A DNA stretch of 64,000 nucleotides from Hyphomicrobiales bacterium. Lineage in GTDB: Bacteria > Pseudomonadota > Alphaproteobacteria > Rhizobiales > Xanthobacteraceae. Made by a program: the position numbers and the translations under genes. Shown here in pieces: positions 46,458 to 61,753 of this stretch. The notes under the pieces were generated by a model. It ran no database searches. It worked only from the letters and a program-made list of their open reading frames with translations, and was not told the origin of the DNA. The stretch is taken from NCBI GenBank assembly GCA_017305535.1, contig JAFKKN010000011.1, positions 124,001-188,000 of the forward strand, written 5' to 3'. The stretch's first letter is position 1, and every line of letters starts with the position of its first letter.

Positions 46458-46471
46458 CTAACCAGCGTTAG
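46458..46471. promoter_or_regulatory. Operator-like inverted repeat upstream of importer 3 operon
   Basis: CTAACCAGCGTTAG is a 5-bp dyad (CTAAC/GTTAG) with the same spacing as the sites at 53056, 53074, 56504, 59683 and 61732, but the inner A/T pair is replaced (CC..CG). It is the weakest member of the set and lies in the 146-bp gap between the hydrolase stop and the livG start. Confidence 0.55.
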
Positions 46472-46530
46472 ATTTTCACGCAAGCGCGATATTGGGCACG
46501 GACGCCGAAATGGCCTAAAGCTCACAGGCA

Positions 46531-47388
46531 TCACGAATGCGCGTGCGAGAGCGGCGCTTGTTGGCGCAGGAATCGGACGATCGCTTCGGTAAAGGCGTCG
46601 TTGCGGTCACCGACCACCATGTGCCCGGCGCCGGCGATATCGGTATAGGTCGCGTGCGGCGCGAACTGGAGAAACTGTTGAGCTGCCTCGGTCGTCACCA
46701 GATTGCTGGAGGCGCCGCGGATCAGGTGAACGGGAAGGTGCAACCGGCGAGCGGCGGCGACAAATCGTACTTCCGAATCCTCCGGTGAGGGCCGGTTTGC
46801 CGCAGTGATGAACTGCGGGTCCCAGTGCCAACGCAGTCGTCCGTCGTCGCACTTGCGCAGATAGCGTTCCAGCGTCTCCGACGGACCACGTTGCTTGCGA
46901 TGCGGCAGATAGGCGCCGATGGCGGCGGCGGCTTCGTCGGCGGTCGCAAAGCCTTCGTCGATGTGCGCGGCCATGAAGCCGATGATATGAGCGACGCCTT
47001 CCGGTTCCAGTTGCGGCGTGACGTCAACCAATGTGAGCGATGCGAAGATGCCGGGCCGCAGTTCGCCCTCGGCCAACAGCCCGGCGAGTCCGCCGAGCGA
47101 AGCGCCCACGACAGCGGGCTTGCCCTGCAACGTATCGGCAATCGCGACGAGGTCGGCGGCAAAGTCGGTGAAATGATAGGCGCCGGAGGGCGACCACTCG
47201 CTTTCGCCGTGACCACGCATGTCGATGGCGATGGCCTGATAGCCCGCCTGCGCCAGCGCCGTGGAAACCTTCGACCACGCTGCGCGCGTCTGTCCGCCGC
47301 CGTGTGCGAGCAATACCGGCGATCCCTCGCCAACAGCCTCGGCGGCGATGGTCTGACCGTGCGCCCCGGTGAAGGTTCGTTGCTGCAT
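46531..47388 (-). CDS. Alpha/beta hydrolase
   Basis: A 285-residue hydrolase. Oxyanion segment VLLAHGGGQTRAAW, nucleophile elbow VVGASLGGLAG (about Ser95) and the late His in GAGHMVVGDRND (about residue 263) form a complete catalytic set, and DMRGHGESEW is typical. It is the last gene of the acyl-CoA dehydrogenase / carboxylase operon, 7 bp after the enoyl-CoA hydratase gene. It might be a thioesterase, esterase or C-C hydrolase of the pathway. Confidence 0.87.
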   Translation of the reverse strand: MQQRTFTGAHGQTIAAEAVGEGSPVLLAHGGGQTRAAWSKVSTALAQAGYQAIAIDMRGHGESEWSPSGAYHFTDFAADLVAIADTLQGKPAVVGASLGGLAGLLAEGELRPGIFASLTLVDVTPQLEPEGVAHIIGFMAAHIDEGFATADEAAAAIGAYLPHRKQRGPSETLERYLRKCDDGRLRWHWDPQFITAANRPSPEDSEVRFVAAARRLHLPVHLIRGASSNLVTTEAAQQFLQFAPHATYTDIAGAGHMVVGDRNDAFTEAIVRFLRQQAPLSHAHS

Positions 47389-47395
47389 GGCGTGC

Positions 47396-48160
47396 CTAGT
47401 CCTTGAACTTCGGCTTGCGCTTTTCGTGAAACGCGGTGATTCCCTCGCGCGCGTCCTCGTGCATCATCAGTAGCGGAAAGCCATCGATGGCGTGGCGCAT
47501 CTCGTCACCGCCGAGGCCGCGGTTGTAGAACGATTTCGCCATCGCCACCGCGAGTCGCGGCTTGGCGGCGATCCGTTCGGCAAAAGTCAGTACCTCGGTC
47601 ATCAACGTGTCGTGCGGAACGACCCGCAGCACGAGTCCGATCCGCTCGGCTTCCGTCGCACTGATCGGATCGCCGAGAATGCTGAGTTCTTTCGCCTTCG
47701 CCCTGCCGACGATCTCGTGCAGGCGGACGATGGCGAAGCCCGGCAGCAGGCCGAGCTGGATTTCCGGCACGGCAAACTTGGCGCGGTCGGATGCGATGAT
47801 GAAATCCGACGCCATCGCGAGTTCGAAGCCGCCGCCGTAGGCGAGGCCATTGACGGCGGAGATCACCGGCTTGCCGCAGCGCTCCGGCGCCGCCAGCACG
47901 TCGAGCGCGGCGGCGAGGAATTTGCGGCCCTTTTCGGCTTCCAGTTCGAAGCCCGAGATATCGGCACCGGCGCAGAATGCTTTCTCGCCACCGCCGGTGA
48001 TGACAACAGCGCGAATGCCCTCGTCGGCATCGGCGCGGGCGAGGCCGGCGAGAATGCCCTCGCGGATGCCTGTGGTCAGCGCATTGAGCTTGGTCGGCTC
48101 ATCGAGGGTCAGGATTGCGATCTTGCCCTTGGTCTCGTAATTGACGCTGCCCAATCGCAT
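47396..48160 (-). CDS. Enoyl-CoA hydratase
   Basis: A 254-residue crotonase. Both catalytic glutamates are present: YGGGFELAMASDF (equivalent to Glu144 of rat hydratase) and FAVPEIQLGLLPG (equivalent to Glu164); the oxyanion hole segment AFCAGADISGFE is normal. ATG at 48160 is set by GGGAGG 7 nt upstream. It should hydrate the enoyl-CoA made by the dehydrogenase and/or carboxylase encoded upstream in the operon. Confidence 0.9.
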   Translation of the reverse strand: MRLGSVNYETKGKIAILTLDEPTKLNALTTGIREGILAGLARADADEGIRAVVITGGGEKAFCAGADISGFELEAEKGRKFLAAALDVLAAPERCGKPVISAVNGLAYGGGFELAMASDFIIASDRAKFAVPEIQLGLLPGFAIVRLHEIVGRAKAKELSILGDPISATEAERIGLVLRVVPHDTLMTEVLTFAERIAAKPRLAVAMAKSFYNRGLGGDEMRHAIDGFPLLMMHEDAREGITAFHEKRKPKFKD

Positions 48161-48200
48161 GGTGTCCTCCCTGTTTGTTTCGTCCCGTTGACCGACGCAG

Positions 48201-50198
48201 CTATGATGTTGGTTCGGGTTCGACCACCACGACGACGGCGTTGCGTTCGACGGTTTCGCCGGCGCGGCAGTTGACTGCCGTGACGACGCCATCGACCTCG
48301 CTTGCGATGCGCAATTCCATCTTCATGGATTCGAGCACGGCAGCGACGTCGCCGGTCTTCACCTTGTCGCCGACCGCGACGTTGACCTTGAGGATCATGC
48401 CGGTCATCGGCGCGCGCAGGTCGCCGCTCGTCTCGGCCGCCGCGCTGATATAGCTGAGGTAAGGCACCGCCTGCATGGCGTGAACGCCGCGCCCGTCGTG
48501 GACGAAGACGGCGTTCTGCTCCTGATGGATGCGAACCACTTCGCGACGCGTGCCGACGACGGCGGTAAAGCGATCGTCGCCGATCGGGTCCAGTCGCACC
48601 GTCAGTTCATCATCGTTGATGCCGATCGTCATCGCGCCGTCGGCCTGCACCGGTGCGAAGCGGATCTCGGCGCTGTGGCCCGCCGTCGTCAGATGCAGTT
48701 CCGGTATAGGCGAGAGGCCGGCATCGCCTGCCGCCATGTGCCAGCCGGTGAGATCGCGCGATTGCCACGGATCGCGTGCCGCCGCCTCGCGCTGGCGAAG
48801 CATCCAGAAACAGCCGCCGAGCGCCAGCGCTTCGCGGTCAGACTCTGACGACGTCGCGATGAGTTGGTCGATGCTTTCGTCGATGGATCGGGTATGGAAC
48901 GTCGCCTCGCGTGTTGCGGACCAATCGAGCAAGCCACCAAGAAACGCCTGATTGGTGGTGACGCCGAAGATCGAGGTCGCGTCTACTGCCCCGCGGAGCT
49001 TGTCCAGCGCCTCATTGCGGGAGGGCGCGAAGGCGATCAGCTTCGCCAGCATCGAGTCGTAGTAGGGTGTCACCACCGACCCGCTCTCCACGCCGGTCTC
49101 GACGCGGATATCGCCGGTCGGGAAACTGACGCGCACAATGTCGCCGGTGCTCGGCAGGAAATTGTTGGCGGGGTCTTCGGCGCAGATGCGCGCTTCGACG
49201 GCGTGGCCATTGCAAGCGATCTGCGCTTGCGTCAGTGGCAGGCCCCCGCCGGACGCGATGCGCAGCATCAGTTCGACAATGTCGAGACCGGTAATCATCT
49301 CGGTCACCGGGTGCTCGACCTGCAAGCGCGGGTTCACCTCGAGGAAATAATAGGCGCCATCCTGCAGGATGAATTCGACGGTGCCGGCGCCGCGATAGTT
49401 CAGTCGCTTGCCGAGCCGCACCGCATCCGCCGCCATGCGGTCGCGCAGTGCCGCCGGCAGGTTCGCCGCCGGTGCTTCCTCGATCACCTTCTGATGCCGG
49501 CGCTGCAAGGTGCATTCGCGCTCGAACAGATGGATGACGTTGCCTTTGCCGTCGCCGAGGATCTGGATTTCGATGTGGCGGCCGCGCGGAATCAGCTTCT
49601 CCACGATCAGTCCGGCGGAGCCGAACGCGTTCTTGGCTTCACGCATCGCGGATTCGATATCGTCGGCGAGGCCATCGAATGTCGAGACGACGCGCATGCC
49701 CTTGCCGCCGCCACCGGCCGCGGCCTTCAACATCACCGGCAGGCCGGTGTCGCGCACGATACGCTCGACCTCGGCCTTGTCCTCGCTCGGCGTCGTGCTG
49801 CCGGGAATGATCGGCACGCCGGCGGCGTCCGCTTCCTGCTTGGCCAGCGCCTTGTCCCCGAGCCGCTCGATCACGTCCGGCGTCGGGCCAATGAAGGTGA
49901 GGCCGGCGGCCTCAACCGCGCGGGCGAATGCCGCATTTTCCGCCAGAAAGCCGAAGCCGGGGTGGATTGCCTGCGCGCCGGTGGCTTTCGCGGCCTCAAT
50001 CACCGCATCGATACGCAGATAACTATCGGATGCGGCCGCGCCGCCGATGGCGATGGATTCGCCGATCTCCCTCACATGCAATGCATCGGCATCGGCGGAG
50101 GAATGAACGCCGGCGACGGCAACGCCGAGCCGCTGGCAGGTGCGGGCGATCCGGCAGGCGATTTCGCCGCGATTGGCGATCAGGATTTTATCGAACAC
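48201..50198 (-). CDS. Acyl-CoA carboxylase, biotin carboxylase / biotin carrier subunit
   Basis: A 665-residue fused subunit. N-terminal biotin carboxylase (FDKILIANRGEIACRIARTC, ATP-grasp motif KAAAGGGGKGMRVV, catalytic QRRHQKVIEEAPA and EMNPRLQ-like LEVNPRLQVEHPVTE), then a linker and a C-terminal biotinyl domain with the LESMKMEL lysine (about residue 626). Start is GTG at 50198. With the next upstream gene it forms a methylcrotonyl- or geranyl-CoA-type carboxylase. No hydroxymethylglutaryl-CoA lyase is seen nearby, so leucine degradation is not proven. Confidence 0.92.
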   Translation of the reverse strand: MFDKILIANRGEIACRIARTCQRLGVAVAGVHSSADADALHVREIGESIAIGGAAASDSYLRIDAVIEAAKATGAQAIHPGFGFLAENAAFARAVEAAGLTFIGPTPDVIERLGDKALAKQEADAAGVPIIPGSTTPSEDKAEVERIVRDTGLPVMLKAAAGGGGKGMRVVSTFDGLADDIESAMREAKNAFGSAGLIVEKLIPRGRHIEIQILGDGKGNVIHLFERECTLQRRHQKVIEEAPAANLPAALRDRMAADAVRLGKRLNYRGAGTVEFILQDGAYYFLEVNPRLQVEHPVTEMITGLDIVELMLRIASGGGLPLTQAQIACNGHAVEARICAEDPANNFLPSTGDIVRVSFPTGDIRVETGVESGSVVTPYYDSMLAKLIAFAPSRNEALDKLRGAVDATSIFGVTTNQAFLGGLLDWSATREATFHTRSIDESIDQLIATSSESDREALALGGCFWMLRQREAAARDPWQSRDLTGWHMAAGDAGLSPIPELHLTTAGHSAEIRFAPVQADGAMTIGINDDELTVRLDPIGDDRFTAVVGTRREVVRIHQEQNAVFVHDGRGVHAMQAVPYLSYISAAAETSGDLRAPMTGMILKVNVAVGDKVKTGDVAAVLESMKMELRIASEVDGVVTAVNCRAGETVERNAVVVVVEPEPTS

Positions 50199-50216
50199 GG
50201 CGCGCTTCTCCCGTCA

Positions 50217-51824
50217 TCACATCCGAAGCACGCCAACGCGCGTTTCCTTGGGTGGCAACCGGCCGGCGAGATCGAGCAGCAGCGCCATCACGTTGCGGGT
50301 TTCCAGCGGATCGATCACCATGTCGCACCAGATGTTGCGTGCGAAGTTGTAGGCATTAGCGAAATCCTCGAACTGCTGGCGTACTGGCGCGCGATAGGCT
50401 TCGCGCTCCTCCTCGGTCCAGCTCGTCCCTTCGCGCTTGTGCACTTCGTCCCGCACCATGGCGAGCGTGTTCGCCGCCTGGTCCGGACCCATGATTGCGG
50501 AGCGGCCGTTCGGCCACATCATCATGGCGTTGGGTTTCATCGGGCGGCCGCACATCGACATGTAGCCGGCACCGTAGGAATTGCCGATGATAAGCGTGTA
50601 TTTCGGTACGTCGGCGCTGGCCATCGCGGTGATCATCTTGGCGCCGTGCTTGGAGATGCCGCCTTCCTCGGCCTCGCGGCCGACCATGAAGCCGGTGACG
50701 TCCGCCATGAACAGCAGCGGAATGCCGCGTTTGCAGCACAGATCGATGAAATGCGTCGCCTTCAGCGCGCTTTCGGAAAACAGCACGCCGTTGTTGCAGA
50801 CGATGCCGATTTCGAAGCCCATGATGCGGGCGAAGCCGGTGATCACCGTGTCGCCGTAAAGCGGCTTGAATTCGTGAAACTCGCTGCCATCCACCAGCCG
50901 CGCGATGATATCGCGGTTGTTGGTGGGAACGCGCGGATCGGCGCTGATGAGGCCGTAGATGTCTTTCGGATCGAAACGCGGCGGCCGTGGCTTCGCCACC
51001 TGCCAGCGTTGCTGTGGAATGTCGCCGAGATTGGCGACGATGTCGCGGGTGATGGCGATGGCGTGGCTGTCGTTCTCCGCGAGGTGATCGGTGACGCCGC
51101 TGATGCGGCTGTGCATCTCGCCGCCGCCCAGTTCCTCGACGCCGACTTCCTCCTTGGTCGCGGCATAGACGAGCTGCGGTCCACCGAGGAACATCGCGCC
51201 CTGATTACGCACGATCACGGTCTCGTCGCACAGCGCCGGCATGTAGGCGCCGCCGGCGGTGGAGGGGCCGTGCACGATGGCGATCTGCGGAATGCCTTCG
51301 CCGGACATGCGAATCTGGTTGTAGAAGATCGAACCGAACTGGCCCTCGTCCGGGAAAATGCCGGGCTGGTCCGGCAGGTTGGCGCCGCCGGATTGCACCA
51401 GCGTGATGCAGGGCAGGCGATGCTTCCAGGCGAAGTGCTGGGCGCGCACGTGCTTCTTGCAGGTGATGCCGTAGTAGGTGCCGCCCTTTACGGTGGCATC
51501 GTTGGCGATGATCATGCAGGGACGGCCGGAGACGATGCCGACGCCGGTGATGATGCTGGCGCCGGGCGGCACGCCCTCGTGCATGCCTTCGCCGGCCAAC
51601 TGGCTGAATTCAAGGAACGGCGAGCCGGGGTCCATCAGCGCGGCAATGCGCTCGCGCGGCAACAGTTGCTTGCGCTCCTTGTGCAGCCTGCGCGCACGCT
51701 CCGGACCGCCCAACATCGCGGCTGCGCGCCGTCGGTGCAGGTCGGCGATACGCTCGCGGTAGGCGCCTTCGTTGCGGCGATATTCGTCGCTGGTCGTCGA
51801 GATGTCCGATTTCATCACAGCCAT
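50217..51824 (-). CDS. Acyl-CoA carboxylase, carboxyltransferase subunit
   Basis: A 535-residue beta subunit of the MCC/PCC type. LVQSGGANLPDQPGIFPDEG, IVHGPSTAGGAYMPALCDE and the C-terminal VTGFMVGREAEEGGISKHGA and AGYMSMCGRPMKPNAMMMWP bind acyl-CoA and biotin. It differs from classic MCC beta in the DQPGIFPDEGQFG segment (usually with DEVFPDRxHFG), so it may belong to an atypical clade for an unusual acyl-CoA. Lies 12 bp after the acyl-CoA dehydrogenase gene and 18 bp before the biotin carboxylase gene. Confidence 0.91.
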   Translation of the reverse strand: MAVMKSDISTTSDEYRRNEGAYRERIADLHRRRAAAMLGGPERARRLHKERKQLLPRERIAALMDPGSPFLEFSQLAGEGMHEGVPPGASIITGVGIVSGRPCMIIANDATVKGGTYYGITCKKHVRAQHFAWKHRLPCITLVQSGGANLPDQPGIFPDEGQFGSIFYNQIRMSGEGIPQIAIVHGPSTAGGAYMPALCDETVIVRNQGAMFLGGPQLVYAATKEEVGVEELGGGEMHSRISGVTDHLAENDSHAIAITRDIVANLGDIPQQRWQVAKPRPPRFDPKDIYGLISADPRVPTNNRDIIARLVDGSEFHEFKPLYGDTVITGFARIMGFEIGIVCNNGVLFSESALKATHFIDLCCKRGIPLLFMADVTGFMVGREAEEGGISKHGAKMITAMASADVPKYTLIIGNSYGAGYMSMCGRPMKPNAMMMWPNGRSAIMGPDQAANTLAMVRDEVHKREGTSWTEEEREAYRAPVRQQFEDFANAYNFARNIWCDMVIDPLETRNVMALLLDLAGRLPPKETRVGVLRM

Positions 51825-51836
51825 TGCGGCAGGGTC

Positions 51837-53000
51837 CTAATAGCTGCGCGGCAAGCCCATGACGCGCTCGCCGATATAGTTGAGAAGCATTTCGCGGTTG
51901 AGCGGCGCGGTCTTCAACAGCCGCACCAGCGGATAGATATCGAAGATGCCGTATTCCTTGGTGAAGCCGTTGCCGCCGAAACATTGCAGCGCGATGTCCA
52001 CGGCCTTGGTGCCGGCGTCAGCGGCGGCGAGCTTCGCCATGTTGGAGAATTCGCCGGCCTCGCGGCCCTGATCGTAAACCCACGCGGCCTTGAGCGTCAT
52101 CAGCGAGGCCATCTCGACGTCGGTATAGGCGCTGGCGAGCGGATGTTGCAGGCCCTGATAGGCGCCGATCGGCGTGTTGTTGAACACCTTGCGGCCGCTG
52201 GCGTAGTCTACTGCGCGATTGAGCGCGTAGCGGCCGAGTCCGCAGCAGATCGACCCGACCAGGATGCGTTCGGGATTGAGGCTGTTGAACAGGATTTCGA
52301 AGCCGCGATCGATCTCGCCGACCGCATCTTCCGGACCGAGATCGACATCGTCGAAGAACAGTTGCCACTGGGTTTCCGGGGCGGGAATGCTGACCGGAAT
52401 ATATTGCTTGCTGACGCCCTTGGCCTTGAGATCGACGATGAACAGCGTGAAGCCGTCGGTCTTCCGCTTCACTTCGGTATGCGGAATGGTGCGCGCGACC
52501 ACCAGTACGTAATCGGAGCCGTCGGCGTCGGTGATGAAGGTCTTCTGGCCGTTCAGTGAAAAGCGGTCGCCGTTGCGTTTCGCGACCGACGTGATGCGGA
52601 TCGAATTGGTGCCGGCATCGGGTTCGGTGATCGCGAAGCAGAACCGGGTCTTGCCGGCGCAAGCATCGGGCAGATAGCGCTGCTTCTGCGCTTCGGTACC
52701 GTACTTGGCGATCAGGCCGAGGCTCATGGTGGCACCGACCACCAGGTTCAGAAGCGGGATGCCATTGTTGGAGAGCCCCTCGAGGAACAGGTGCATTTCG
52801 GTCATGCCCTGGCCGGCCCCGCCATATTGCTCCGGCACCATCATGCCGACGAAACCGTCCGCCGCGACCTTTTGATACAATGCGGCGGGAAACTCGCGCT
52901 TCTCCGCGCAGTCGAGCCAGTAGCGGCGATCGTACTGCTTGGCGACGCTGTTGCCGTAATCGAGAATCTGCTGCTGCTCGGTGGTGAGATCGAAATCCAT
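51837..53000 (-). CDS. Acyl-CoA dehydrogenase (first copy)
   Basis: A 387-residue flavoprotein: N-terminal helices MDFDLTTEQQQILDYGNSVA, FAITEPDAGTNS (flavin-binding, about residue 125), CFGGNGFTKEYGIFDIYPLV near residue 345. The usual C-terminal catalytic YEGT is absent (KTAPLNREMLLNYIGERV instead), so the base may be on helix G as in isovaleryl-CoA dehydrogenase, or the chemistry may differ. ATG at 53000 gives a standard N-terminus. It heads the five-gene operon that runs to 46531 and has a tandem operator upstream. Confidence 0.9.
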   Translation of the reverse strand: MDFDLTTEQQQILDYGNSVAKQYDRRYWLDCAEKREFPAALYQKVAADGFVGMMVPEQYGGAGQGMTEMHLFLEGLSNNGIPLLNLVVGATMSLGLIAKYGTEAQKQRYLPDACAGKTRFCFAITEPDAGTNSIRITSVAKRNGDRFSLNGQKTFITDADGSDYVLVVARTIPHTEVKRKTDGFTLFIVDLKAKGVSKQYIPVSIPAPETQWQLFFDDVDLGPEDAVGEIDRGFEILFNSLNPERILVGSICCGLGRYALNRAVDYASGRKVFNNTPIGAYQGLQHPLASAYTDVEMASLMTLKAAWVYDQGREAGEFSNMAKLAAADAGTKAVDIALQCFGGNGFTKEYGIFDIYPLVRLLKTAPLNREMLLNYIGERVMGLPRSY

Positions 53001-53055
53001 GGATCCGTTCCGCTGAATGCCGGGCGAGATTAGGGATAAGCCGCGACCATTGCAA

Positions 53056-53089
53056 TCTAACAACTGTTCAAAATCTAACAACTGTTAGA
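53056..53089. promoter_or_regulatory. Tandem operator upstream of acyl-CoA dehydrogenase operon
   Basis: Two inverted repeats sit side by side: TCTAACAACTGTTCAA (53056-53071, one arm mismatched) and TCTAACAACTGTTAGA (53074-53089, arms exact). Their centres are 18 bp apart and they lie 56-89 bp before the ATG at 53000. Tandem spacing of this sort permits two dimers on one face of the DNA. Confidence 0.75.
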
Positions 53090-53143
53090 ATTATGCCCAA
53101 AGAGCTTGATGGCTCGCTTGCGTCAAGTCGCTGCGATCAAGGT

Positions 53144-53563
53144 TCAGGCGCGTTTGAAGCGCGGCAGGGCGATGTCGTCCGAGACCGGCTCGCAGACCAG
53201 TTCGACCTCCATGTCGAATGTGACCTCGTCTGATCTACCGCCGGTATAGGTCGAGATCATCCGCGGGCCTTCGGCCAGTTCCACCAGCAGCACGGCATAG
53301 GGCACGTCGTTTTTGAAAGCCGGGCCGGGCGCGCGATGGACGACACTGAAGGAATGCACCTTGCCGCGCCCGCTGGCCGGGCGATGCGTCAGATTTTCGC
53401 CGCTACAATGGCGGCAGAACCCCTGCTGGTAAAACTGCACGTTGCCGCAATCGCCGCAGTGCTGGAGCAACAATTGGCCGTCGCGCAGGCCGCGCCACAG
53501 TGCGGCGGTATCTGCGTCGGGTGAGGGGAGCGGTTTGCGGGCAGCGTCTTCGAGCGAGATCAC
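53144..53563 (-). CDS. DUF35 / OB-fold zinc-ribbon protein, partner of the thiolase-like enzyme
   Basis: A 139-residue protein with an N-terminal zinc ribbon CGDCGNVQFYQQGFCRHC (four Cys, about residues 37-54) and an OB-fold half (GKVHSFSVVHRAPGPAFKND, then VPYAVLLVELAEGPRMIST). The start is GTG at 53563, overlapping the stop of the thiolase-like gene as GTGA. DUF35 proteins form complexes with thiolase-like enzymes; in steroid side-chain degradation such pairs act as retro-aldolases. Confidence 0.87.
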   Translation of the reverse strand: MISLEDAARKPLPSPDADTAALWRGLRDGQLLLQHCGDCGNVQFYQQGFCRHCSGENLTHRPASGRGKVHSFSVVHRAPGPAFKNDVPYAVLLVELAEGPRMISTYTGGRSDEVTFDMEVELVCEPVSDDIALPRFKRA

Positions 53564-54765
53564 AGCGTGTTCTCCGTGCCGAGAATGGTGGTGGCGTTGG
53601 TAGCGAAGCCGGCGCCGAGGCTGTGGACCAGCCCGAGTTCGGCGCCCGCGACCTGCCGCGCGCCGCATTCGCCGCGCAATTGCGCGACGACTTCGTGAAA
53701 GTGGAACAGCGAGCCGGGAATGCCGGAATGTGCGAAGGACAGGAGTCCGCCATGGGTATTGGAGGGAATCTGTCCGCCATAGGTCATCTGGCCGTCGGCG
53801 ACAAAGCGGCCACCTTCGCCCTTGGGGCAGAAGCCGAGGTCTTCCAGCATCATGATGACGGTGCCGGTGAAGCAGTCGTAAACACCGGCGGTGTGCATGT
53901 CCTTCGGGCCGTAGCCGGCCATGTCGTAGGCCCACTGGCTCGATTGCACCGCGCCGGTGGTGGTGAGCGAGGGCATCAGGAAGATATGCTCGTGGGTGTA
54001 GCACTCGCCGCCGCCGAGAATGTAGATCGGCTTTTCGATGCCGAGCGCTTTCGCGCGTTCGGCCGATGTCAGCACGAAGGCCGCGCCGCCGTCGGAAATC
54101 AGCGAGCAATCGAGCTTGCGATAGGGCGACGTCACCATCTTCGAGTTGAGCACGTCTTCGATGGTGATCGGCTCGGTCTGCTGGGCGCCGGGGGTGCGCG
54201 CCGCGTGCTGGCGCTGCGTCACCGCTACTTGCGCCAGTTGCTCCGGCGTGGTGCCGAATTCCTTCATGTGCCGATGCGCCGTCATCGCGAAGGTATTGGC
54301 GACCGGAATGCCGAACGGCATCTCGTATTGCTGGTCGCGGCTTTCGGTGAGCGAGCGCAATGCCAGTTCCGGCGTCAGGCCGGACAGCAGGCTGTCGCCG
54401 CCGACCACCAGCACGGTCTCGGCAAGGCCGCCGTGGATCGCAGCGGCGGCGATGCTGAACATGGTGGCGGCGGTCGCGCCCGACACCTGCAATGTGTTCG
54501 AGAACGTTGGCCGCACGCCGAAATATTCGCTGAAGGCAACGCTGAAGCGATGAAACTGCGCGGCCATCGCCGGGCTCGCCAGCACGCCGTCGATCTCGTT
54601 TTTCTGCATGCCGGCATCGGCCAGCGCCTGCTTGGCGGCAGCCGCGGCGAGCCACAGCGGGCTGCGCCCCGGCACCTTGCCGACCGGCGACAGCCCGATG
54701 CCGACGATGGCGACCTGTCCGCGCAATGAATTCTTGTGGCCCGCGAGGGCCGCAGCCTTGGTCAT
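53560..54765 (-). CDS. Thiolase-like protein without the nucleophilic cysteine
   Basis: A 401-residue thiolase-fold protein: VAIVGIGLSPVGKVPGRSPL at the N-terminus, NTLQVSGATAATMFSIAAAA at the position of the catalytic-Cys helix, and IPSNTHGGLLSFAHSG as the C-terminal His-containing loop. No Cys is present in the first helix region, where thiolases carry the acyl-accepting Cys. With its coupled DUF35 partner this resembles the SCP-x/Ltp2 aldolase group, which cleaves beta-hydroxyacyl-CoA without a covalent intermediate. An AGGAG site precedes the ATG. It follows an acyl-CoA ligase gene by 8 bp. Confidence 0.85.
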   Translation of the reverse strand: MTKAAALAGHKNSLRGQVAIVGIGLSPVGKVPGRSPLWLAAAAAKQALADAGMQKNEIDGVLASPAMAAQFHRFSVAFSEYFGVRPTFSNTLQVSGATAATMFSIAAAAIHGGLAETVLVVGGDSLLSGLTPELALRSLTESRDQQYEMPFGIPVANTFAMTAHRHMKEFGTTPEQLAQVAVTQRQHAARTPGAQQTEPITIEDVLNSKMVTSPYRKLDCSLISDGGAAFVLTSAERAKALGIEKPIYILGGGECYTHEHIFLMPSLTTTGAVQSSQWAYDMAGYGPKDMHTAGVYDCFTGTVIMMLEDLGFCPKGEGGRFVADGQMTYGGQIPSNTHGGLLSFAHSGIPGSLFHFHEVVAQLRGECGARQVAGAELGLVHSLGAGFATNATTILGTENTL

Positions 54766-54773
54766 GAAATCTC

Positions 54774-56330
54774 CTATTTCGCGGCGACGGAAGCTGTTTG
54801 CGTCAATCGCGCCTCAAGCTCGTGACGCTGCACCTTGCCGCTGGTCGAGCGCGGGAAGTCCGCGAAGTCGATGAAGTGGAATTGCCGCGGGCATTTGTAG
54901 CTGGCGAGATCGCGCCGGCACATCGCGGTCAGTTCGGCCTCGGTGAGGCTGTCGTCGCGGCGCGCGATGAACGCCACCGGCACCTCGCCCCACTTGGTAT
55001 CCTTGGTGCGCACCACGGCAGCCTCTGTGATGCGGGCATCGCTCATCAGTACGCGCTCGATCTCGGCCGGGTAGACATTCTCGCCGCCGGACTTGATCAT
55101 GTATTTGGCGCGATCGACGAAATCGAGCGTACCGTCGGCGTTGCGGCGGAACACGTCGCCCATGTGGAACCAGCCGCCACGAAAATCGCGCGCGTTGGTT
55201 TCATCGGCCTGCCAATAGCCGGAGAACAGCGTCGGGCCGCGAATGGCGAGTTCGCCGGGCTCACCGATCGCGACCTCGTTGTCATCGGGATCGACCAGCT
55301 TGATCTCGCAAAAGCTGCTTTGCTGCTTCGAAAGCCGGGTCGGCACATGGCCGATCGGGATCAGATTGGTGCTGGCCGGCGGCAGTCCGGTTTCGGTCGA
55401 GCCAAAGCTGTTGATGTAAGGTGCCTGTAGGAGTTGCGTAATGTCAGCGATGGCCTGCGGCGGCACCAGGTCCGCCATCGCGCCGCAGGTGCGTACGCCC
55501 TTGACGGTGACGGGGTTGGCGCGAAAACCTTCGACGAGAGCCTCCACCATGCCGGGAATCAGCACGAACCAGCCGATGCGGTAACGCGCGGCAGCGGACA
55601 AGAGTGGCGCGGCCTGAAAGCCATCAACGACAATCACGGTACCGCCGCGCAGCAAGGTGGCGAGGGCGTGGTCGGTGGAGGCCATGTGGAACAACGGTGC
55701 CCAGGCGACAAAGGATTCGTCGTGCGCGATGTTAAGTTCGGACGAGAATACCAGCGCGCGCGCCATCATTGCGCGATGCGAGATCACTGCGCCTTTCGGC
55801 AGGCCGGTGGTGCCGCTGGTATAGAGGATGACGAGGCCATCCTCCGGCTCCGCAGTGATCGGTGATGGCGCGCCGCTCTCAGCTTGCAGTGCTTGTTCGT
55901 AGTTCGCACCCAGCGTCACGACATCGCGGACCGATAGCGCGCCATCAAGCGGCGCCGCCAGTTCCGTTTCCGCGATCAGGAGTTTTGGCGAGACCAATTC
56001 GATGCAGTAGACCAGTTCGCGCTTCGACAGCCGCCAGTTGAGGCAAGCCGTGATGATGCCAAGTTGCGCGGCCGCCAGTTCAATCTCGAGATATTCGGGG
56101 CGGTTGCGCGACAGCAGGGCGACGCGGTCGCCGCGCGCGAGGCCACGCGCGGCCAGCATCGCGGTCGCGCGGTTCACCCGGCCGTTCAATTCTCCGTAAC
56201 CGATGATGCGGCCGTCGTGTTCGATGGCGGGCGCGTCCGGCTGGATCGCGGCGCGGCTGCGGAACAGGCTGCCGACCGTCGAGCTGGTGCCGGCGGCAAT
56301 CATTGGCGAACTCTTTTGCCCGTGGTCCAT
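54774..56330 (-). CDS. Acyl-CoA ligase (AMP-dependent synthetase)
   Basis: A 518-residue adenylate-forming enzyme: VILYTSGTTGLPKGAVISHR (about residue 168), INSFGSTETGLPPAS, FHMGDVFRRNADGTLDFVDR (about residue 395) and the late catalytic lysine region STSGKVQRHELE. ATG at 56330 is favoured by AAGGCGG 6 nt upstream; ATG at 56303 is an alternative. It heads the ligase / thiolase-like / DUF35 operon. Its upstream region contains an operator copy shared with the divergent crotonase gene. Confidence 0.9.
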   Translation of the reverse strand: MDHGQKSSPMIAAGTSSTVGSLFRSRAAIQPDAPAIEHDGRIIGYGELNGRVNRATAMLAARGLARGDRVALLSRNRPEYLEIELAAAQLGIITACLNWRLSKRELVYCIELVSPKLLIAETELAAPLDGALSVRDVVTLGANYEQALQAESGAPSPITAEPEDGLVILYTSGTTGLPKGAVISHRAMMARALVFSSELNIAHDESFVAWAPLFHMASTDHALATLLRGGTVIVVDGFQAAPLLSAAARYRIGWFVLIPGMVEALVEGFRANPVTVKGVRTCGAMADLVPPQAIADITQLLQAPYINSFGSTETGLPPASTNLIPIGHVPTRLSKQQSSFCEIKLVDPDDNEVAIGEPGELAIRGPTLFSGYWQADETNARDFRGGWFHMGDVFRRNADGTLDFVDRAKYMIKSGGENVYPAEIERVLMSDARITEAAVVRTKDTKWGEVPVAFIARRDDSLTEAELTAMCRRDLASYKCPRQFHFIDFADFPRSTSGKVQRHELEARLTQTASVAAK

Positions 56331-56503
56331 TTTCCGCCTTCCTCCGCGTCCGGCATCCGCCCCGTTCCGGACCGCGCTATAAGAGGCGCTTTGCCGCGCG
56401 CCCGCAAGGCCGTCCAAAAACGCCATCCATGTTTTGGAATATCATGAGTTGGCAGGTGTCGGGGGCAAGTCGGCGCTTGCGGCGCCGCGCGATCCCACAT
56501 AAA

Positions 56504-56521
56504 TTCTAACATCTGTTCGAA
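56504..56521. promoter_or_regulatory. Operator in the divergent ligase / crotonase promoter
   Basis: TTCTAACATCTGTTCGAA is an 18-bp dyad with one mismatched pair. It lies 174 bp before the ligase ATG (minus) and 106 bp before the crotonase ATG (plus), so one site may serve both directions. Confidence 0.7.
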
Positions 56522-56626
56522 AAAGTTTCCATAGCGGGTTGTTCGCTTTTTCGAGGCAGGGACCGATTTCACCGGCCTGGTGCGTGCGTTCTGCGTGAAA
56601 CAGGCCATCGACCGACGAGGACGCTG

Positions 56627-57436
56627 ATGTCGAACCGCTACGCTGCCTACACTAAACTGAAGCTCGATTATCCGTCGAAGCGAATCCTTCGGATTACCTT
56701 CGATCGCCCGGAAACCTACAATTCGGTTGATGCGGAAACCCACACCCAGATCACCAACATCTGGCGCGATATCAACGACGATCCGGATATCAACGCGGTG
56801 ATCGTCACTGGCGCGGGCAAGGCATTTTCCGCCGGCGGTGATTTCGAACTGATCAAGAGCCTTCTCGATAATCCGGTCGCACGCATGGCGACCTGGAAGG
56901 AAGCCAAGGACCTCGTCTACAACGTCATCAATTGCAACAAGCCGATCATTTCCGCGATCAATGGCGTCGCGGTCGGCGCCGGCCTCGTCGTCGGCATTCT
57001 GGCGGACGTATCGATCTGCGGCAAATCCGCCAAGATCGTCGACGGTCATACGCGGCTCGGCGTTGCGGCGGGCGACGTCGCCTGCATCATCTGGCCGCTG
57101 CTCTGCGGTCTGGCCAAGGCAAAATACTATCTCCTGACCTGCAAGCCGCTGTCCGGCGAGGAAGCCGAGCGCATCGGGCTGGTGTCGCTCTGCGTCGAGG
57201 ATGCCGAGTTGCAGAAGATCGCACTGGAAACGGCGGAAGACCTCGCCACCGGTGCGCAGAGCGCGATCCGCTGGACCAAGTATTCGCTGAACAACTGGCT
57301 GCGCGTGAACGGGCCGCTGTTCGACACCTCGACGGCACTGGAAATCCTCGGGTTCTCCGGACACGAAGCCCGTGAAGGCCTCGCCTCGCATCTCGAAAAG
57401 CGCAAACCGTCCTTCCCGCCGGAGTGCCCGGTCTAA
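56627..57436 (+). CDS. Crotonase-family protein lacking both hydratase glutamates
   Basis: A 269-residue enoyl-CoA hydratase/isomerase fold protein. The oxyanion segment AFSAGGDFELIK (about residue 66) is intact, but the catalytic positions read VAVGAGLVVGILADV (no Glu in place of GGGxE) and DGHTRLGVAAGDVA (no Glu in place of PEI). It therefore probably does not hydrate; decarboxylation, isomerisation, hydrolysis or ring opening are alternatives. GAGG precedes the ATG. It stands alone, divergent from the ligase operon. Confidence 0.85.
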   Translation: MSNRYAAYTKLKLDYPSKRILRITFDRPETYNSVDAETHTQITNIWRDINDDPDINAVIVTGAGKAFSAGGDFELIKSLLDNPVARMATWKEAKDLVYNVINCNKPIISAINGVAVGAGLVVGILADVSICGKSAKIVDGHTRLGVAAGDVACIIWPLLCGLAKAKYYLLTCKPLSGEEAERIGLVSLCVEDAELQKIALETAEDLATGAQSAIRWTKYSLNNWLRVNGPLFDTSTALEILGFSGHEAREGLASHLEKRKPSFPPECPV

Positions 57437-57500
57437 GGGTCTAAGAAAGAGTTAGGTGCTCAATGCTTCGAGCGCCTTCCAATTTTCCAAGGAAACACTT

Positions 57501-57626
57501 CGTCATGGCCGGGCATAGCCGTTCGAAGAACGGCGTCGCTTCGCTCGCCTATGTCCCGGCCATTCACGTCTTTCTTGCCGCAACTCCGTTAAGACGTGGA
57601 TGGCCGGAATAAATCCGGCCATGACG
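57501..57626. repeat. Composite palindromic intergenic repeat (CGTCATGGCCGG family)
   Basis: The outer ends CGTCATGGCCGG and CCGGCCATGACG are exact 12-bp inverted repeats. An inner CCGGCCATTCACGTCTT pairs with AAGACGTGGATGGCCGG. It lies between the convergent crotonase and acyl-CoA synthetase genes. Elements of this form are, from memory, abundant in Bradyrhizobium and Rhodopseudomonas genomes. Confidence 0.8.
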
Positions 57627-57646
57627 GTGGTGAGCTTGTGTGGTCG

Positions 57647-59608
57647 TCAGCCCACCGCCAGTTGCTTGCGCAACGCGTCCACCGTCTCCGGATTAGCGAG
57701 CGACGACAGGTCGCCCGGGTCCTTGTTTTCGAACACCGCGCGCAGCACGCGACGCATGATTTTCAGGTTGCGCGTGCGCGGCAGGTCGTCGACGAAGACG
57801 ATGCGCTCCGGACGGTAGGACGCGCCCATGCCCTTCACCAGCGCGCCGGACAGTTCCTCGGCGATGCCGTCCGACGCAACGCCTGGCATCAGCACGCAGG
57901 CGCAGACGATCGTCGATCCCTTCACCGGATGCGGAATGCCGAATACCGCGGCTTCCGCCACCTTGCCGGTCGCAACCAGCAGGCCCTCAAGTTCCGACGG
58001 GCCGGTGCGCTTGCCGGAAATCTTGATGGTGTCGTCGGAGCGGCCGAGAATGTAGTAGAGGCCGTCGGTGCCCTGCATGGCGAAATCGCCGTGCACCCAA
58101 ATGCCAGGCAACGTGCTCCAGTAATTGTCGATGTAGCGCGCATCGGCCTTCCAAAGGCTTTTCGTCAATCCGATCGACGAGTGGCGCAGGATCAGTTCGC
58201 CGACCTCGCCGGGCGGCACCTTGTTGCCGGCCAGATCGACGATATCGGCGCCGACGCCGAGCGCCCGTCTTGAGAACGAGCCGGGATTCATCGGGTGGTT
58301 CGGCGTGCCGAGGAAGATGCAGCCGCCGACCTCGGTGCCGCCGGAAATATTGATGATCGGCAGTCGCCGCTTGCAGACATGCTCGAAGAACCATTGCCAC
58401 GGCGCGGCGGTCCATGCCTCGCCGCCGGACGTCGTCATGCGCAGGCTGGAGAGATCGTAGTTCTCCACTTCTTCGCCATAGCGCATCAGGCTGCGCACGA
58501 TGGTGGGCGAGACGCCGAGATAGCTGACGCGATGGTCCTGGATCAGCCGCCAGAACCGTCCCGTGTCCGGATAATCCGGCGTGCCTTCGGCCACCAGCAG
58601 GCTGGCGCCGGCGAAGCTCGGGATGCAGGCGGTCATCGCGCCGACCATCCAGCCCATGTCGCTCATGAAGAAGAAGCGATCGGTCGGCTTGAAGTCGCAG
58701 CAGATGATGATGTCGCGCGTCACCATCGAGCCGATGAAGCCGATCTGGGTCCAGACACAGCCCTTCGGCTCGCCGGTGGTACCCGAGGTGTAGAGCAGGA
58801 TCGCCGGTGCATCGGCCGGCATTTCGACCGTGGCGATATCGCCATTCTTGTCCGTCGTGATGTCGTGCCACCAATGATCGCGGCCGGCGCGCATCGGCGT
58901 GTCGATCGACAATCCGCCGCGATCGACCACGACCACGTGCCGCACGCTTGGGGCCTGCTCCAGCGCGATGTCGAGCACGGATTTCAGTGGTCCCGGAGAG
59001 CCGCGCCGCCAGGTGCCATTGGCGGTGATCACGGCTTTCGCTTCGCCATGGTTGAGGCGGGAGACGATCGGGGCAGGACCGAAGCCGGAAAACAGCGGCA
59101 GCAGGATCGCGCCGAGCTTCATGATCGCGAAGAAGGCCACGAACGTTTCTGGCAGGTTCGGCATGTAAAGCGCGACGACGTCGCCTTGCCCGATGCCGAG
59201 ATCGCGCAGGCCCTGTGCCAGATGGCAAACTTCGCGATCGAGATCGCGGTAGCTGAGCGTGCGCTGCTCCTTTTTGTCTTCGCCTTCCCACACCAGAAAG
59301 GTCTGATCCCACACCGGCGTATCGCGATGCTTGTCGATGCAGTTCAGGACGATGTTGGTGGTGCCGCCGACGCACCAGCGCGCCCATGGTTCGCCGCGCG
59401 AGGTATCCAGCATCTTGTCGTAAGGTTTGTAGAAGCGCACGTCGCAGAACTTGAACACCTGCTCCATGAGCCAGGCCGGATCGGTCTCGGCGGCGGCCGC
59501 GAGGCTGTCGTAGTCAGCGTGACCGGTAGCGTGGAGGAATGCCGTCAGATTGCTTTGCGCGACGAGATCGGGGGAGGGTTCCCAAACATAACGGTTGGCG
59601 TCGCTCAT
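57647..59608 (-). CDS. Acetyl/acetoacetyl-CoA synthetase-like ligase
   Basis: A 653-residue ligase of the AcsA-like subgroup: N-terminal cap, AILLYTSGTTGEPKGCVWTQ (about residue 270), INISGGTEVGGCIFLGTP, then WVHGDFAMQGTDGLYYILGR and SDDTIKISGKRTGPSELE (about residues 520-560). The catalytic lysine region is DDLPRTRNLKIMRR. AGGA precedes the ATG. It is the only gene in its unit, with an operator copy 75-90 bp upstream in the gap it shares with the transglutaminase-like gene. The substrate is likely a short acyl chain. Confidence 0.88.
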   Translation of the reverse strand: MSDANRYVWEPSPDLVAQSNLTAFLHATGHADYDSLAAAAETDPAWLMEQVFKFCDVRFYKPYDKMLDTSRGEPWARWCVGGTTNIVLNCIDKHRDTPVWDQTFLVWEGEDKKEQRTLSYRDLDREVCHLAQGLRDLGIGQGDVVALYMPNLPETFVAFFAIMKLGAILLPLFSGFGPAPIVSRLNHGEAKAVITANGTWRRGSPGPLKSVLDIALEQAPSVRHVVVVDRGGLSIDTPMRAGRDHWWHDITTDKNGDIATVEMPADAPAILLYTSGTTGEPKGCVWTQIGFIGSMVTRDIIICCDFKPTDRFFFMSDMGWMVGAMTACIPSFAGASLLVAEGTPDYPDTGRFWRLIQDHRVSYLGVSPTIVRSLMRYGEEVENYDLSSLRMTTSGGEAWTAAPWQWFFEHVCKRRLPIINISGGTEVGGCIFLGTPNHPMNPGSFSRRALGVGADIVDLAGNKVPPGEVGELILRHSSIGLTKSLWKADARYIDNYWSTLPGIWVHGDFAMQGTDGLYYILGRSDDTIKISGKRTGPSELEGLLVATGKVAEAAVFGIPHPVKGSTIVCACVLMPGVASDGIAEELSGALVKGMGASYRPERIVFVDDLPRTRNLKIMRRVLRAVFENKDPGDLSSLANPETVDALRKQLAVG

Positions 59609-59682
59609 GGGCTGTCCTACGGTCTTTGAATAGAAGGTGCGAAACTACAATACCGCGCCGCGACGATTGACAATAGCTTGTT

Positions 59683-59698
59683 TCTAACATTTGTTAGA
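59683..59698. promoter_or_regulatory. Operator in the divergent synthetase / transglutaminase-like promoter
   Basis: TCTAACATTTGTTAGA has exact 7-bp arms around TT. It lies 75-90 bp before the synthetase ATG (minus) and 32-47 bp before the transglutaminase-like ATG (plus). Confidence 0.75.
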
Positions 59699-59729
59699 TT
59701 CATTGCGAATGGCTGGCTGATCCAGCGGG

Positions 59730-60419
59730 ATGGTGGACGTGACTGCTTCTCCGAATGCCGATTTTCTGAAACCGACATCCTTCGTCGATAGCGACTCCAC
59801 GCCGGTGCGCGAGTTCGCGGCCTCGGCGCTGCGCGGCTTCGAGAATGCGTCGCCGACCGAGAAGGCGATCCGGCTGTTCGACGCGGTGCGCGACCGGATC
59901 AAGTACGATCCGTTCACTCTCGGCGTCACGCCGCACGATTACCGCGCCAGCACGGTGGCGCAGCGGCCCTCGAACTACTGCGTGCCCAAGGCGATTTTGC
60001 TGGCAGCGGTGCTGCGTGCCGCCGGCATTCCGGCGGCGCCCGGTTTTGCGGACGTGAAGAACCACCTCAACTCGGCCAAACTTTCCGACCTGATGGGGAC
60101 CGACCTCTTCATCTATCACGGCTATGTCGCGCTATGGCTCGACGGCAAGATGTTCAAGGTGACGCCGGCGTTCAACACCGAACTATGCCAGCGCTTCGGC
60201 GTGCGCGAACTGATATTCGACGGCAAGAGCGACGCGCTGTTCCACGAGTTCGATACAAAGAACCGGCGGCATATGGAATATGTCAACGACCGTGGTTGGT
60301 TCGTCGATCCACCGATCGATCAGTTGCTGAGCGATATGCACGCAACTTATCCCAAGCTGTGGGAAAAGGGCGTATCCGCAACTGAGACCGCGCCGGTCGA
60401 GTTCGCGCCGGATCGCTGA
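59730..60419 (+). CDS. Transglutaminase-like cysteine protein
   Basis: A 229-residue protein of the bacterial transglutaminase-like superfamily. KAIRLFDAVRDRIKYDPF, then the nucleophile in NYCVPKAILLAAVLRAAGIP (about Cys90), the His in YHGYVALWLDGK (about His131) and the acidic/Asn position in VTPAFNTELC suggest a complete Cys-His-Asp-like triad. No signal peptide is seen. The role is unknown; it is likely a peptidase, amidase or acyltransferase rather than a crosslinker. An operator copy lies directly upstream, tying it to the acyl-CoA genes. Confidence 0.83.
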   Translation: MVDVTASPNADFLKPTSFVDSDSTPVREFAASALRGFENASPTEKAIRLFDAVRDRIKYDPFTLGVTPHDYRASTVAQRPSNYCVPKAILLAAVLRAAGIPAAPGFADVKNHLNSAKLSDLMGTDLFIYHGYVALWLDGKMFKVTPAFNTELCQRFGVRELIFDGKSDALFHEFDTKNRRHMEYVNDRGWFVDPPIDQLLSDMHATYPKLWEKGVSATETAPVEFAPDR

Positions 60420-60428
60420 TAGTCATCC

Positions 60429-60505
60429 GTCATTGCGAGGAGCATGGCGACGAAGCAATTCAGTTCTTTCTTTTTGGCTTTGTGGATTGCTTCGCTCGCA
60501 ATGAC
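60429..60505. repeat. Palindromic intergenic repeat (GTCATTGCGAG family), copy 1
   Basis: GTCATTGCGAG and CTCGCAATGAC are exact 11-bp inverted ends, with inner CGAAGCAATTCAG / TGGATTGCTTCG partial pairing. It lies between the convergent transglutaminase-like and acyl-CoA dehydrogenase genes. A second copy is at 63887-63963. Confidence 0.8.
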
Positions 60506-60519
60506 CGTGCCGGTAGGCG

Positions 60520-61698
60520 TCAGGCCTTCCCCGCGTCCTGCTTGGCATACTGCACCGCAACGCGGCCGACCTTCTCGCGCGCGATCACCAGCTTCTGGAT
60601 CTGCGCGGTGCCGTCGCCGATCTGTAGGCCCATCACGTCGAGATAGCGCTGATGGAACGGCAGGTCGGTGGTGTAACCGTAGTGGCCATGCGTGAGCAGG
60701 CATTGGTGGATGATTTCGCACGTGGTCTTCGGCACGTACCACTTGCACATCGCAGCCTCGGCTGTATGCGGCAGGCGGCGGTCGCGCAATGAGAGCGTGT
60801 GGAAGCAAAGCTGGCGCATCATGGTGAGTTGCGTCTCGGCTTCCGCCAGCGGGAAACTGACACCCTGGAACTGGGCGATCGGTCGTTCGAACGCGGTGCG
60901 CTCGCGCGAGTATTGCCAGGCCTCGTCCACCGACGCCTGCGCCGGGCCGATGCATTCGAGGCCGATCAGGGCGCGGCTGTAGTCGAAGCCGGTCATGATT
61001 TTTGAGAAGCCCTTGTTCTCCTCCGCCATCAGGCATTCCGCCGGAATGAACACGTCGTCGAAGAACACCGAGCCGCGCCCGACCGGCTTGGTGCCGATGT
61101 CGTCGAAATGGGTGCGGGTGATGCCCTTCTGATTGAGGTCGACGAAGAACGCACTGACGCCGCGCGCGCCGTCCTCCACTTTGCCGGTGCGAGCGAAGAT
61201 CACCGCGGCGTCGCACTGGTCGGCGCAGCTCATCGAGGTCTTTTCACCATTAAGGCGGTATCCGTTGCCGGATTTCTCCGCGCGAAGAATGAGATTGGCG
61301 GCGTCCGATCCGCCGCGTGGCTCGGTGAGGCCGAGGCCGATGATGGCTTCGCCACGCGTCACCTTCGGGAGCCATTCCCTGGCGACGTCGGGTGTCGCAT
61401 GCTGCGCCACCATGCCCCCCATCAGCGAGGCGAGCAGTTGCACGTAGCTGGCGTTGAAGTCGGCATAGGCGATCTGCTCGATGATGACGCCGGCGGTGAC
61501 GCTGCTTTCGCCGAGGCCGCCATAGGCTTCCGGGATGTCGACGCCGATCAGGCCGAGCGATCCCATCTCGGTGAGCATTGCGCGGTCGAGGCGGTGCTCG
61601 GTGGCGCGCCTCTGGTAGTGCGGCGCCAGCTTTTCGGTGGCGAAGCGCTGTGCGGCCTCGCGGAATGCTTCCTGCTGCTCGTTCAGCGTGGTGTCCAA
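60520..61698 (-). CDS. Acyl-CoA dehydrogenase (second copy, GDGT active-site variant)
   Basis: A 392-residue acyl-CoA dehydrogenase. GLTEPRGGSDAANLILRAEK, GTKPVGRGSVFFDDVFIP and DYSRALIGLECIGPAQASVD mark the flavin and substrate domains. The C-terminal motif reads LQIGDGTAQIQKLVIAREK, with Asp where the catalytic Glu of YEGT normally lies. I favour TTG at 61698 (GAGGGG 4-5 nt upstream, giving an N-terminus of (M)DTTLNEQQEAF); ATG at 61734 adds 12 residues but has no ribosome binding site and abuts the operator. It is divergent from the dienoyl-CoA-reductase-like gene. Confidence 0.87.
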   Translation of the reverse strand: MDTTLNEQQEAFREAAQRFATEKLAPHYQRRATEHRLDRAMLTEMGSLGLIGVDIPEAYGGLGESSVTAGVIIEQIAYADFNASYVQLLASLMGGMVAQHATPDVAREWLPKVTRGEAIIGLGLTEPRGGSDAANLILRAEKSGNGYRLNGEKTSMSCADQCDAAVIFARTGKVEDGARGVSAFFVDLNQKGITRTHFDDIGTKPVGRGSVFFDDVFIPAECLMAEENKGFSKIMTGFDYSRALIGLECIGPAQASVDEAWQYSRERTAFERPIAQFQGVSFPLAEAETQLTMMRQLCFHTLSLRDRRLPHTAEAAMCKWYVPKTTCEIIHQCLLTHGHYGYTTDLPFHQRYLDVMGLQIGDGTAQIQKLVIAREKVGRVAVQYAKQDAGKA

Positions 61699-61731
61699 GG
61701 GGCCCTCACGAAATGTCTTGATTTCTTGAAG

Positions 61732-61753
61732 CATTCTAACAACTGTTAGAATG
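61732..61753. promoter_or_regulatory. Best copy of the shared operator, divergent promoter
   Basis: A 22-bp element with ten exact base pairs per arm around AC; its core is TTCTAACAACTGTTAGAA. It lies between the divergent acyl-CoA dehydrogenase and 2,4-dienoyl-CoA-reductase-like genes, 27 bp before the latter's ATG. Confidence 0.8.

Follow-up and report, generated by a model that had tools for sequence, protein, structure and literature searches.

The stretch considered here, a window of 64,000 nucleotides from a Hyphomicrobiales bacterium (C12:124001-188000; the genome comprises 4.73 Mb on 15 contigs), carries a cluster of genes for acyl-coenzyme A (acyl-CoA) metabolism in which several promoter regions share an inverted repeat, TCTAACA-NN-TGTTAGA. 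Very probably, a TetR-family repressor whose gene lies 2.0 kb past the window end uses this repeat as its operator. The sites, the regulator gene, and their conservation and co-occurrence among genomes are matters of direct observation. Binding by the regulator, repression, a CoA ester as ligand and the type of acid involved are proposed from what is known of the family.

A search of the whole window with TCTAACANNTGTTAGA, allowing up to three mismatches, found seven places against 0.33 expected; none of 100 shuffles reached seven (standard deviation 0.60, largest count 3). Those in the acyl-CoA cluster are listed here, with gene labels of our own (ACD, acyl-CoA dehydrogenase; ECH, crotonase-like; ACCa and ACCb, biotin-dependent carboxylase subunits; SDR, short-chain dehydrogenase; C1_x, genes of a second cluster discussed below).

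46457-46472, no strand: degenerate operator, three mismatches, before the importer operon (motif search; missed by the matrix scan)
53056-53071, no strand: second operator copy, two mismatches, 18 bp from the 53074 copy (motif search)
53074-53089, no strand: operator, no mismatches, before ACD1 and the carboxylase operon (motif search, orthologous promoters)
56505-56520, no strand: operator, one mismatch, divergent gap between LIG and ECH_b (motif search, orthologous promoters)
59683-59698, no strand: operator, no mismatches, divergent gap between AACS and TGLP (motif search, orthologous promoters)
61735-61750, no strand: operator, no mismatches, divergent gap between ACD2 and DCR (motif search, orthologous promoters)

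An earlier note on this DNA had located these three exact copies, those with one and two mismatches and the three-mismatch importer copy, correctly to within a few bases. Its remark that the window holds no other copy is true at up to two mismatches and fails at three, where a match at 37579-37594 appears outside the acyl-CoA cluster and resembles chance. The A/T pairs flanking the motif also carry information, which brings the length of the operator closer to 20 bp, WWTCTAACANNTGTTAGAWW. The palindromes stand some 10-130 bp upstream of most chosen gene starts. For ACD1, the longest frame begins with TTG at 53081, within the double site; considering that homologues from other genera start at residue 22-28 of this frame, the start is placed near 53000, with both operator copies upstream of it. 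A scan for sigma-70 promoters was uninformative (2 matches versus 2.9 in shuffles).

How does the motif behave across the genome as a whole? At up to two mismatches it occurs at nine places, four of them exact: three inside the window and one 931 bp past its end (C12:188931, window coordinates 64931-64946), between the divergently oriented genes SDR and ECH_c. A one-mismatch copy lies on contig C1 at 357466, in a second carboxylase cluster, and two places with two mismatches (C3:307751 and C7:75621) lie within predicted reading frames and resemble chance matches. The reversed pattern gives 18 places within the same limit, none exact and one with a single mismatch; the raw count is therefore no evidence, and it is the exact and clustered matches that are. 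The earlier note had proposed a genome scan with a matrix. Using a 20-bp matrix built from 30 sites in this and related genomes, seven being the strong sites of this genome itself (E <= 10; 150 of 480 first-look candidates scored), the scan returned seven places, namely the five good window copies, C12:188931 and C1:357465, and all are in gaps before genes when ACD1 is counted from its conserved start. It did not recover the degenerate importer site at 46457. The scan favours the note's reading, with the correction that the regulon extends past the block of window genes, to 64931 and contig C1.

The note's supposition that the regulator probably belongs to the TetR family and is encoded outside the window is supported by a TetR gene at C12:190045-190794 (window coordinates 66045-66794, minus strand), about 2.0 kb past the window end, which is present in the same genomes as the exact site (see below). 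The 249-residue product matches TetR_N (PF00440, 60.5 bits, cut-off 24) and TetR_C_24 (PF17932, 56.3 bits, cut-off 26.4), and has one TetR unit in its chain, hence not the tandem arrangement of Mce3R. Its structure model consists of nine helices, with a block at a predicted local distance difference test score of 83-97 over residues 61-220; in the regulator at L010:3046-3795 the first 53 residues form a long basic N-terminal tail of low model confidence that varies among orthologues. The fold kin listed by Foldseek include PfmR, DarR, KstR2, Bacillus FadR (in a stearoyl-CoA form as well) and AibR in complex with isovaleryl-CoA and operator, and its best sequence match in the PDB is 4mo7 (85 bits). 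All 18 NCBIfam matches fall under their curated cut-offs, for example Bacillus FadR (60 of 200 bits) and KstR (34 of 280).

Regulator and site occur together. In a sample of 198 genomes of the family, TetR matches at E <= 1e-20 were found in 19, at 60% identity or more in 13 and at 25-38% in six. The exact site and the regulator orthologue (at least 60% identity) are present in the same 13 genomes, and the other 185 have neither. These 13 genomes hold 38 exact sites, against four of the reversed pattern, one each in four genomes. In 11 of them every exact site is on the regulator's contig, at most 14 kb away; the remaining two, G144 and G164, are fragmented. Four further family genomes have a relative of AACS at 49-51% identity, and neither a close TetR nor an exact site. 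In a sample of 289 genomes of the class, exact sites occur in two (this genome and G462) and the reversed pattern in three, and TetR matches at E <= 1e-30 occur in 18, of which 16 have a distant relative and no exact site. Seventeen distant loci were searched, from those 16 genomes and for the second TetR of G462 (TetR identity 35-54%). Six have a site at up to two mismatches and four at up to one, and in five of the six it stands just before the TetR gene; 40 scrambled palindromes gave means of 0, 0 and 0.35 sites at zero, one and two mismatches, and at most 3. All such counts run over related genomes and are not independent events.

The sites are also conserved at orthologous promoters, a comparison that the earlier note had suggested. 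In the 13 family genomes, the best match was sought between 300 bp before the chosen start and 45 bp after it, for genes of at least 55% identity matching from residue 60 or earlier and with at least 200 bases upstream, each divergent gap being counted once per flanking gene. Sites with at most one mismatch precede ECH_c in 13/13, SDR in 12/12, DCR in 9/9 and ACD2 in 10/12 cases. The corresponding counts are 10/12 for TGLP, 11/13 for AACS, 10/12 for ECH_b, 9/12 for LIG and 10/12 for ACD1, and these rise at up to two mismatches to 12/12, 13/13, 12/12, 11/12 and 12/12, respectively. Over 220 upstream regions the motif is found in 62% at up to three mismatches, while 60 scrambled palindromes average 0.55% (largest 5%). 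In 9 of 13 genomes the ACD1 promoter has a second copy (up to three mismatches) at a distance of 17-19 bp, exactly 18 in seven of them; of the other operators with at most one mismatch, 2 of 49 have a second copy at that spacing. This suggests that two dimers may bind next to each other in front of the carboxylase operon.

For the importer gene ABC_G, none of nine promoters has a site at one mismatch or fewer, 2/9 have one at up to two and 5/9 at up to three; the degenerate copy reported by the note thus recurs before the same gene, but it is weak. The claim that the motif links all transcription units of the locus holds for most promoters. At up to three mismatches there is no copy before ACD3/ACD4 or the regulator gene, and none upstream of ACD3 (0/5), THIO (0/12), FACS648 (0/9), ECH_a (0/11), the hydrolase (0/5) or C1_TetR (0/5). 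ACCb has one in 1 of 13 genomes, G138, the genome without ACD1. THIO, ACCb, ECH_a and FACS648 likely lie within operons.

Evidence from farther relatives bears on the regulator itself. We examined the loci of the best 80 of 215 relatives found in named genomes (1.45 Mb), a set that overlaps with the family sample (loci L016-L020 belong to genomes G144, G072, G159, G093 and G112, and L086 to G164). Among the relatives is a Bradyrhizobium orthologue of about 62% identity. The sites in these loci number 68 without mismatch, 90 with one and 27 with two, and the reversed pattern is absent, against means of 0, 0.05 and 0.7 for 40 scrambled palindromes. A site with at most one mismatch is present in 75 of the 80 loci and an exact site in 50, and 157 of 158 sites with at most one mismatch lie outside homologous genes.

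In 62 of these loci, mostly from Rhodobacteraceae-type bacteria, the TetR gene is a tandem one (for example L037:9344-10744). Among stretches of at least 150 residues free of stops, outside loci L086 and L108, 62 TetR pairs are fused in frame; the one unfused pair is, by our reading, the L083 tandem unit plus a third neighbouring TetR. A site stands just upstream of the tandem gene in 57 of the 59 loci (of 62) that have at least 250 bases upstream, and in 52 of 59 at one mismatch or fewer, the former count being at up to two. The neighbours of these genes are only distant relatives of the home-cluster genes, and the TetR relatives are about 50% identical to the regulator. The family test links the site to the cluster; as judged from sequence, the link to TetR comes from its presence in front of distantly related TetR genes that have different neighbours.

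In a tree of 72 of the 129 distinct TetR domains, the first and second tandem units form sister groups (joint support 96/87), except for one L083 row taken to be mislabelled, and the C1 paralogue falls outside the regulator group (support 97/94); several branches are long. The tandem units would fit a single fusion. We lean, by a modest margin, towards a history in which the palindromic operator outlived a switch of its regulator from a single-TetR homodimer to a fused, self-controlling double TetR that would bind as an intramolecular pseudo-dimer, and in which a paralogous TetR line would read a near-identical operator at other carboxylase clusters of the 3-methylcrotonyl-CoA carboxylase (MCC) type. 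The tandem-TetR cluster at L037 contains AtuA, a hint that the tandem relatives may deal with terpenoid-like acids.

How might the regulator act? In the explanation that we favour, a TetR dimer would occupy each 16-20 bp palindrome in the cluster promoters and, upstream of the starts, would hinder transcription. So bound, it would shut off the ligases, dehydrogenases, hydratases and MCC-type carboxylase, and the importer more weakly, with two dimers probably adjacent on the double operator. Release from DNA would most likely follow when the regulator binds a CoA thioester of the pathway. Both repression and this release are proposed because they are the habit of the TetR family and of the fold kin.

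Several known systems bear comparison. AibR of Myxococcus and Bacillus FadR are acyl-CoA-binding TetR proteins that resemble the regulator in predicted fold and in acyl-CoA targets, at 16-20% identity in the listed matches. KstR2 of Mycobacterium is, similarly, the TetR of a catabolic cluster, and matches in sequence (E 2e-10, 22-24% identity) as well as in fold; its targets and operator differ from those of the window regulon. The atu cluster for acyclic terpenes in Pseudomonas has carboxylase, dehydrogenase, hydratase and ligase genes. Its carboxylase is of the geranyl-CoA carboxylase (GCC) type, whereas that of the home cluster is MCC-type, and no AtuA was noticed in the home cluster, though not every frame was scanned. 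LiuQ and FadP are TetR family members. Their regulons, known from comparative genomics, concern branched-chain or fatty acid use and were compared with the window regulon by description only, as was AtuR. In the accessible part of one source (PMC5343134), LiuQ and FadP are said to occur, within the set of genomes studied, in betaproteobacteria only, and another, likewise accessible in part (PMC3511530), has AtuR as a TetR-like repressor of a divergent neighbour. Mce3R carries two TetR units per chain, as do the tandem relatives and unlike the single-domain window regulator. According to the available text of PMC11667970, Mce3R binds a nonpalindromic 25-bp operator; the tandem relatives, in contrast, adjoin a palindrome. 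No description of the window regulator or its motif was found among the open-licence papers listed by our searches, which is no proof of absence.

We conclude that the operator is real and that the regulator is very probably its reader, and several results weigh against this conclusion. The earlier note had suggested looking for a nearby TetR gene with the site in its own promoter; the gene is nearby, but its upstream region has no site at up to three mismatches in any of 12 family genomes, in contrast to the tandem relatives. The importer copy at 46457 is weak taken alone. The exact site is absent from the six family genomes whose TetR matches are weaker (25-38%), 11 of the 17 distant class loci have no site at up to two mismatches, so that the operator is lost progressively as the TetR becomes more distant, and three of the 80 nearest loci also lack one (L024, where the contig ends before the site; L030, a 4.6-kb contig; and L034, which is divergent). 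AACS at 77% identity or more is present in the same 13 family genomes as the regulator, and all of these but G138, thus 12, have ACD1 at 80% or more; the targets are inherited together with the regulator, and family co-occurrence alone therefore does not single out TetR. Finally, a candidate now exists for the one repressor of the earlier note, but next to the C1 copy there is a TetR paralogue of 39% identity, which makes the word "one" uncertain.

That paralogue provides the most serious alternative. The cluster on C1 (C1:352114-361108, L012:2115-11109) contains a carboxylase, an acyl-CoA dehydrogenase, a gene resembling indolepyruvate ferredoxin oxidoreductase (named by eye) and C1_TetR (L012:2115-2756), which lies 5 kb from the one-mismatch site. 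That site lies in the gap separating the dehydrogenase from the carboxylase and recurs in all five examined genomes that have the cluster. Perhaps C1_TetR, alone or jointly, reads the window operators, with two regulators sharing one DNA site and cross-regulating the clusters. The recognition helices of the two proteins are similar in alignment, and in the class sample TetR genes of C1-type carboxylase clusters have sites with one or two mismatches just upstream in G391, G484 and G238, but none at up to two in G198, G224, G294 and G403. C1_TetR matches (E <= 1e-20) occur in only 5 of the 13 site-bearing genomes (G000, G072, G093, G144 and G159), so that in the other eight the paralogue is not needed, and in the tree it stands apart from the regulator group. 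We regard this alternative as possible, at a distinctly lower likelihood than control by the linked regulator.

A second, unlikely alternative grants that the linked TetR binds the operator but has it activate, or respond to a signal other than a CoA ester. DarR, a TetR responding to the second messenger cyclic di-AMP, is among the best fold matches. Against this stand the acyl-CoA functions of the target genes and the presence of FadR, AibR and KstR2 among the fold kin; most studied TetR proteins are repressors, as far as the accessible part of PMC3511530 goes.

Could the TetR be a bystander, with the repeat bound by some other factor, either unlinked or missed here, that is passed on together with the cluster? 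Regulator and targets do co-occur as a unit, and the TetR gene of the family has no copy before it, but the site stands directly before the genes of relatives about 50% identical to the regulator with different neighbours. Two AraC genes near the home cluster, considered as the regulator, were rejected, neither being kept in the other-genus loci examined (no match at E <= 1e-10). We judge a bystander TetR quite improbable. A chance or structural repeat (terminator or RNA hairpin) can be dismissed: 12 of the 15 perfect 7-2-7 inverted repeats in the window are unrelated to the motif, but its sequence is conserved beyond its symmetry, and the copies stand before genes at places where a terminator scan gave no match.

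The window genes of the cluster and its importer are as follows.

39513-40844, minus: ABC_sub, importer periplasmic binding protein (PF13458)
40841-41656, minus: ABC_F, importer ATPase (named by eye; kept in relatives)
41664-42770, minus: ABC_M, importer permease (named by eye; kept in relatives)
42742-43629, minus: ABC_H, importer permease (named by eye; kept in relatives)
43633-45579, minus: FACS648, AMP-binding acyl-CoA ligase within the importer operon (domain match)
45566-46384, minus: ABC_G, importer ATPase, first gene past the degenerate operator (PF00005, PF12399)
46531-47388, minus: alpha/beta hydrolase (domain match)
47396-48292, minus: ECH_a, crotonase-like (named by eye; kept in relatives)
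48201-50198, minus: ACCa, biotin carboxylase subunit (domain match)
50217-51824, minus: ACCb, carboxyltransferase subunit, MCC type (sequence matches, residue alignment)
51837-53081, minus: ACD1, acyl-CoA dehydrogenase (conserved start near 53000)
53144-53563, minus: DUF35, ChsH2-type protein with an oligonucleotide/oligosaccharide-binding (OB) fold (domain match)
53560-54765, minus: THIO, thiolase-like protein (domain match)
54774-56426, minus: LIG, acyl-CoA ligase (domain match)
56627-57436, plus: ECH_b, crotonase-like (named by eye; kept in relatives)
57647-59608, minus: AACS, acetyl/acetoacetyl-CoA synthetase-like ligase (family matches)
59730-60419, plus: TGLP, transglutaminase-like protein (domain match)
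60520-61698, minus: ACD2, acyl-CoA dehydrogenase-like (named by eye; TTG start picked by homology)
61780-63840, plus: DCR, flavin oxidoreductase of the dienoyl-CoA reductase or old yellow enzyme kind (family matches)

ACCb scores 585 and 581 bits with MCC-beta chains, 430 with geranyl-CoA carboxylase beta and 278 with the best classical propionyl-CoA carboxylase beta; two chains are closer still, 4q0g (acetyl-/propionyl-CoA carboxylase AccD1, 638 bits) and 9tps (propionyl-CoA carboxylase, 612 bits). Its residue 163 is Phe, aligned with position 191 of human MCC-beta (human numbering assumed), and in the accessible part of PMC4673880 Phe191 of MCC-beta is a mark of MCC, with Gly at that position in GCC. 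A geranyl-CoA (Atu) type carboxylase was rejected on this residue. The substrate is likely an acid with a gamma-carboxylation step, to judge from the predicted gene set, because the carboxylase is accompanied by ligases, dehydrogenases, hydratases, a dienoyl-reductase-like flavoenzyme and the thiolase/ChsH2-type pair; in view of the 3-methylcrotonyl-CoA type of the carboxylase, this acid is perhaps methyl-branched.

Other features of the region deserve mention. The ChsH2-type protein adjoins the thiolase-like protein (53144-54765), and such a pair is familiar from steroid side-chain degradation. The transglutaminase-like gene TGLP (59730-60419) is kept in the acyl-CoA cluster with an operator in front. 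Past the window, L010:9342-15317 holds another group of genes for a ligase, a carboxylase pair and a crotonase, with no operator in L010 (up to three mismatches) except at 1932, and L011:308-5123 holds two flavin monooxygenase genes that look Baeyer-Villiger-like by eye.

With a regulator gene, an operator of 16-20 bp, a list of targets and a genome scan that gives no other strong place, the regulon is now testable. The regulator-operator pair recurs in many Alphaproteobacteria and could help to annotate many acyl-CoA clusters. An operator common to single and fused TetR proteins offers a natural series, from homodimer to one-chain pseudo-dimer, in which the DNA site would have been retained.

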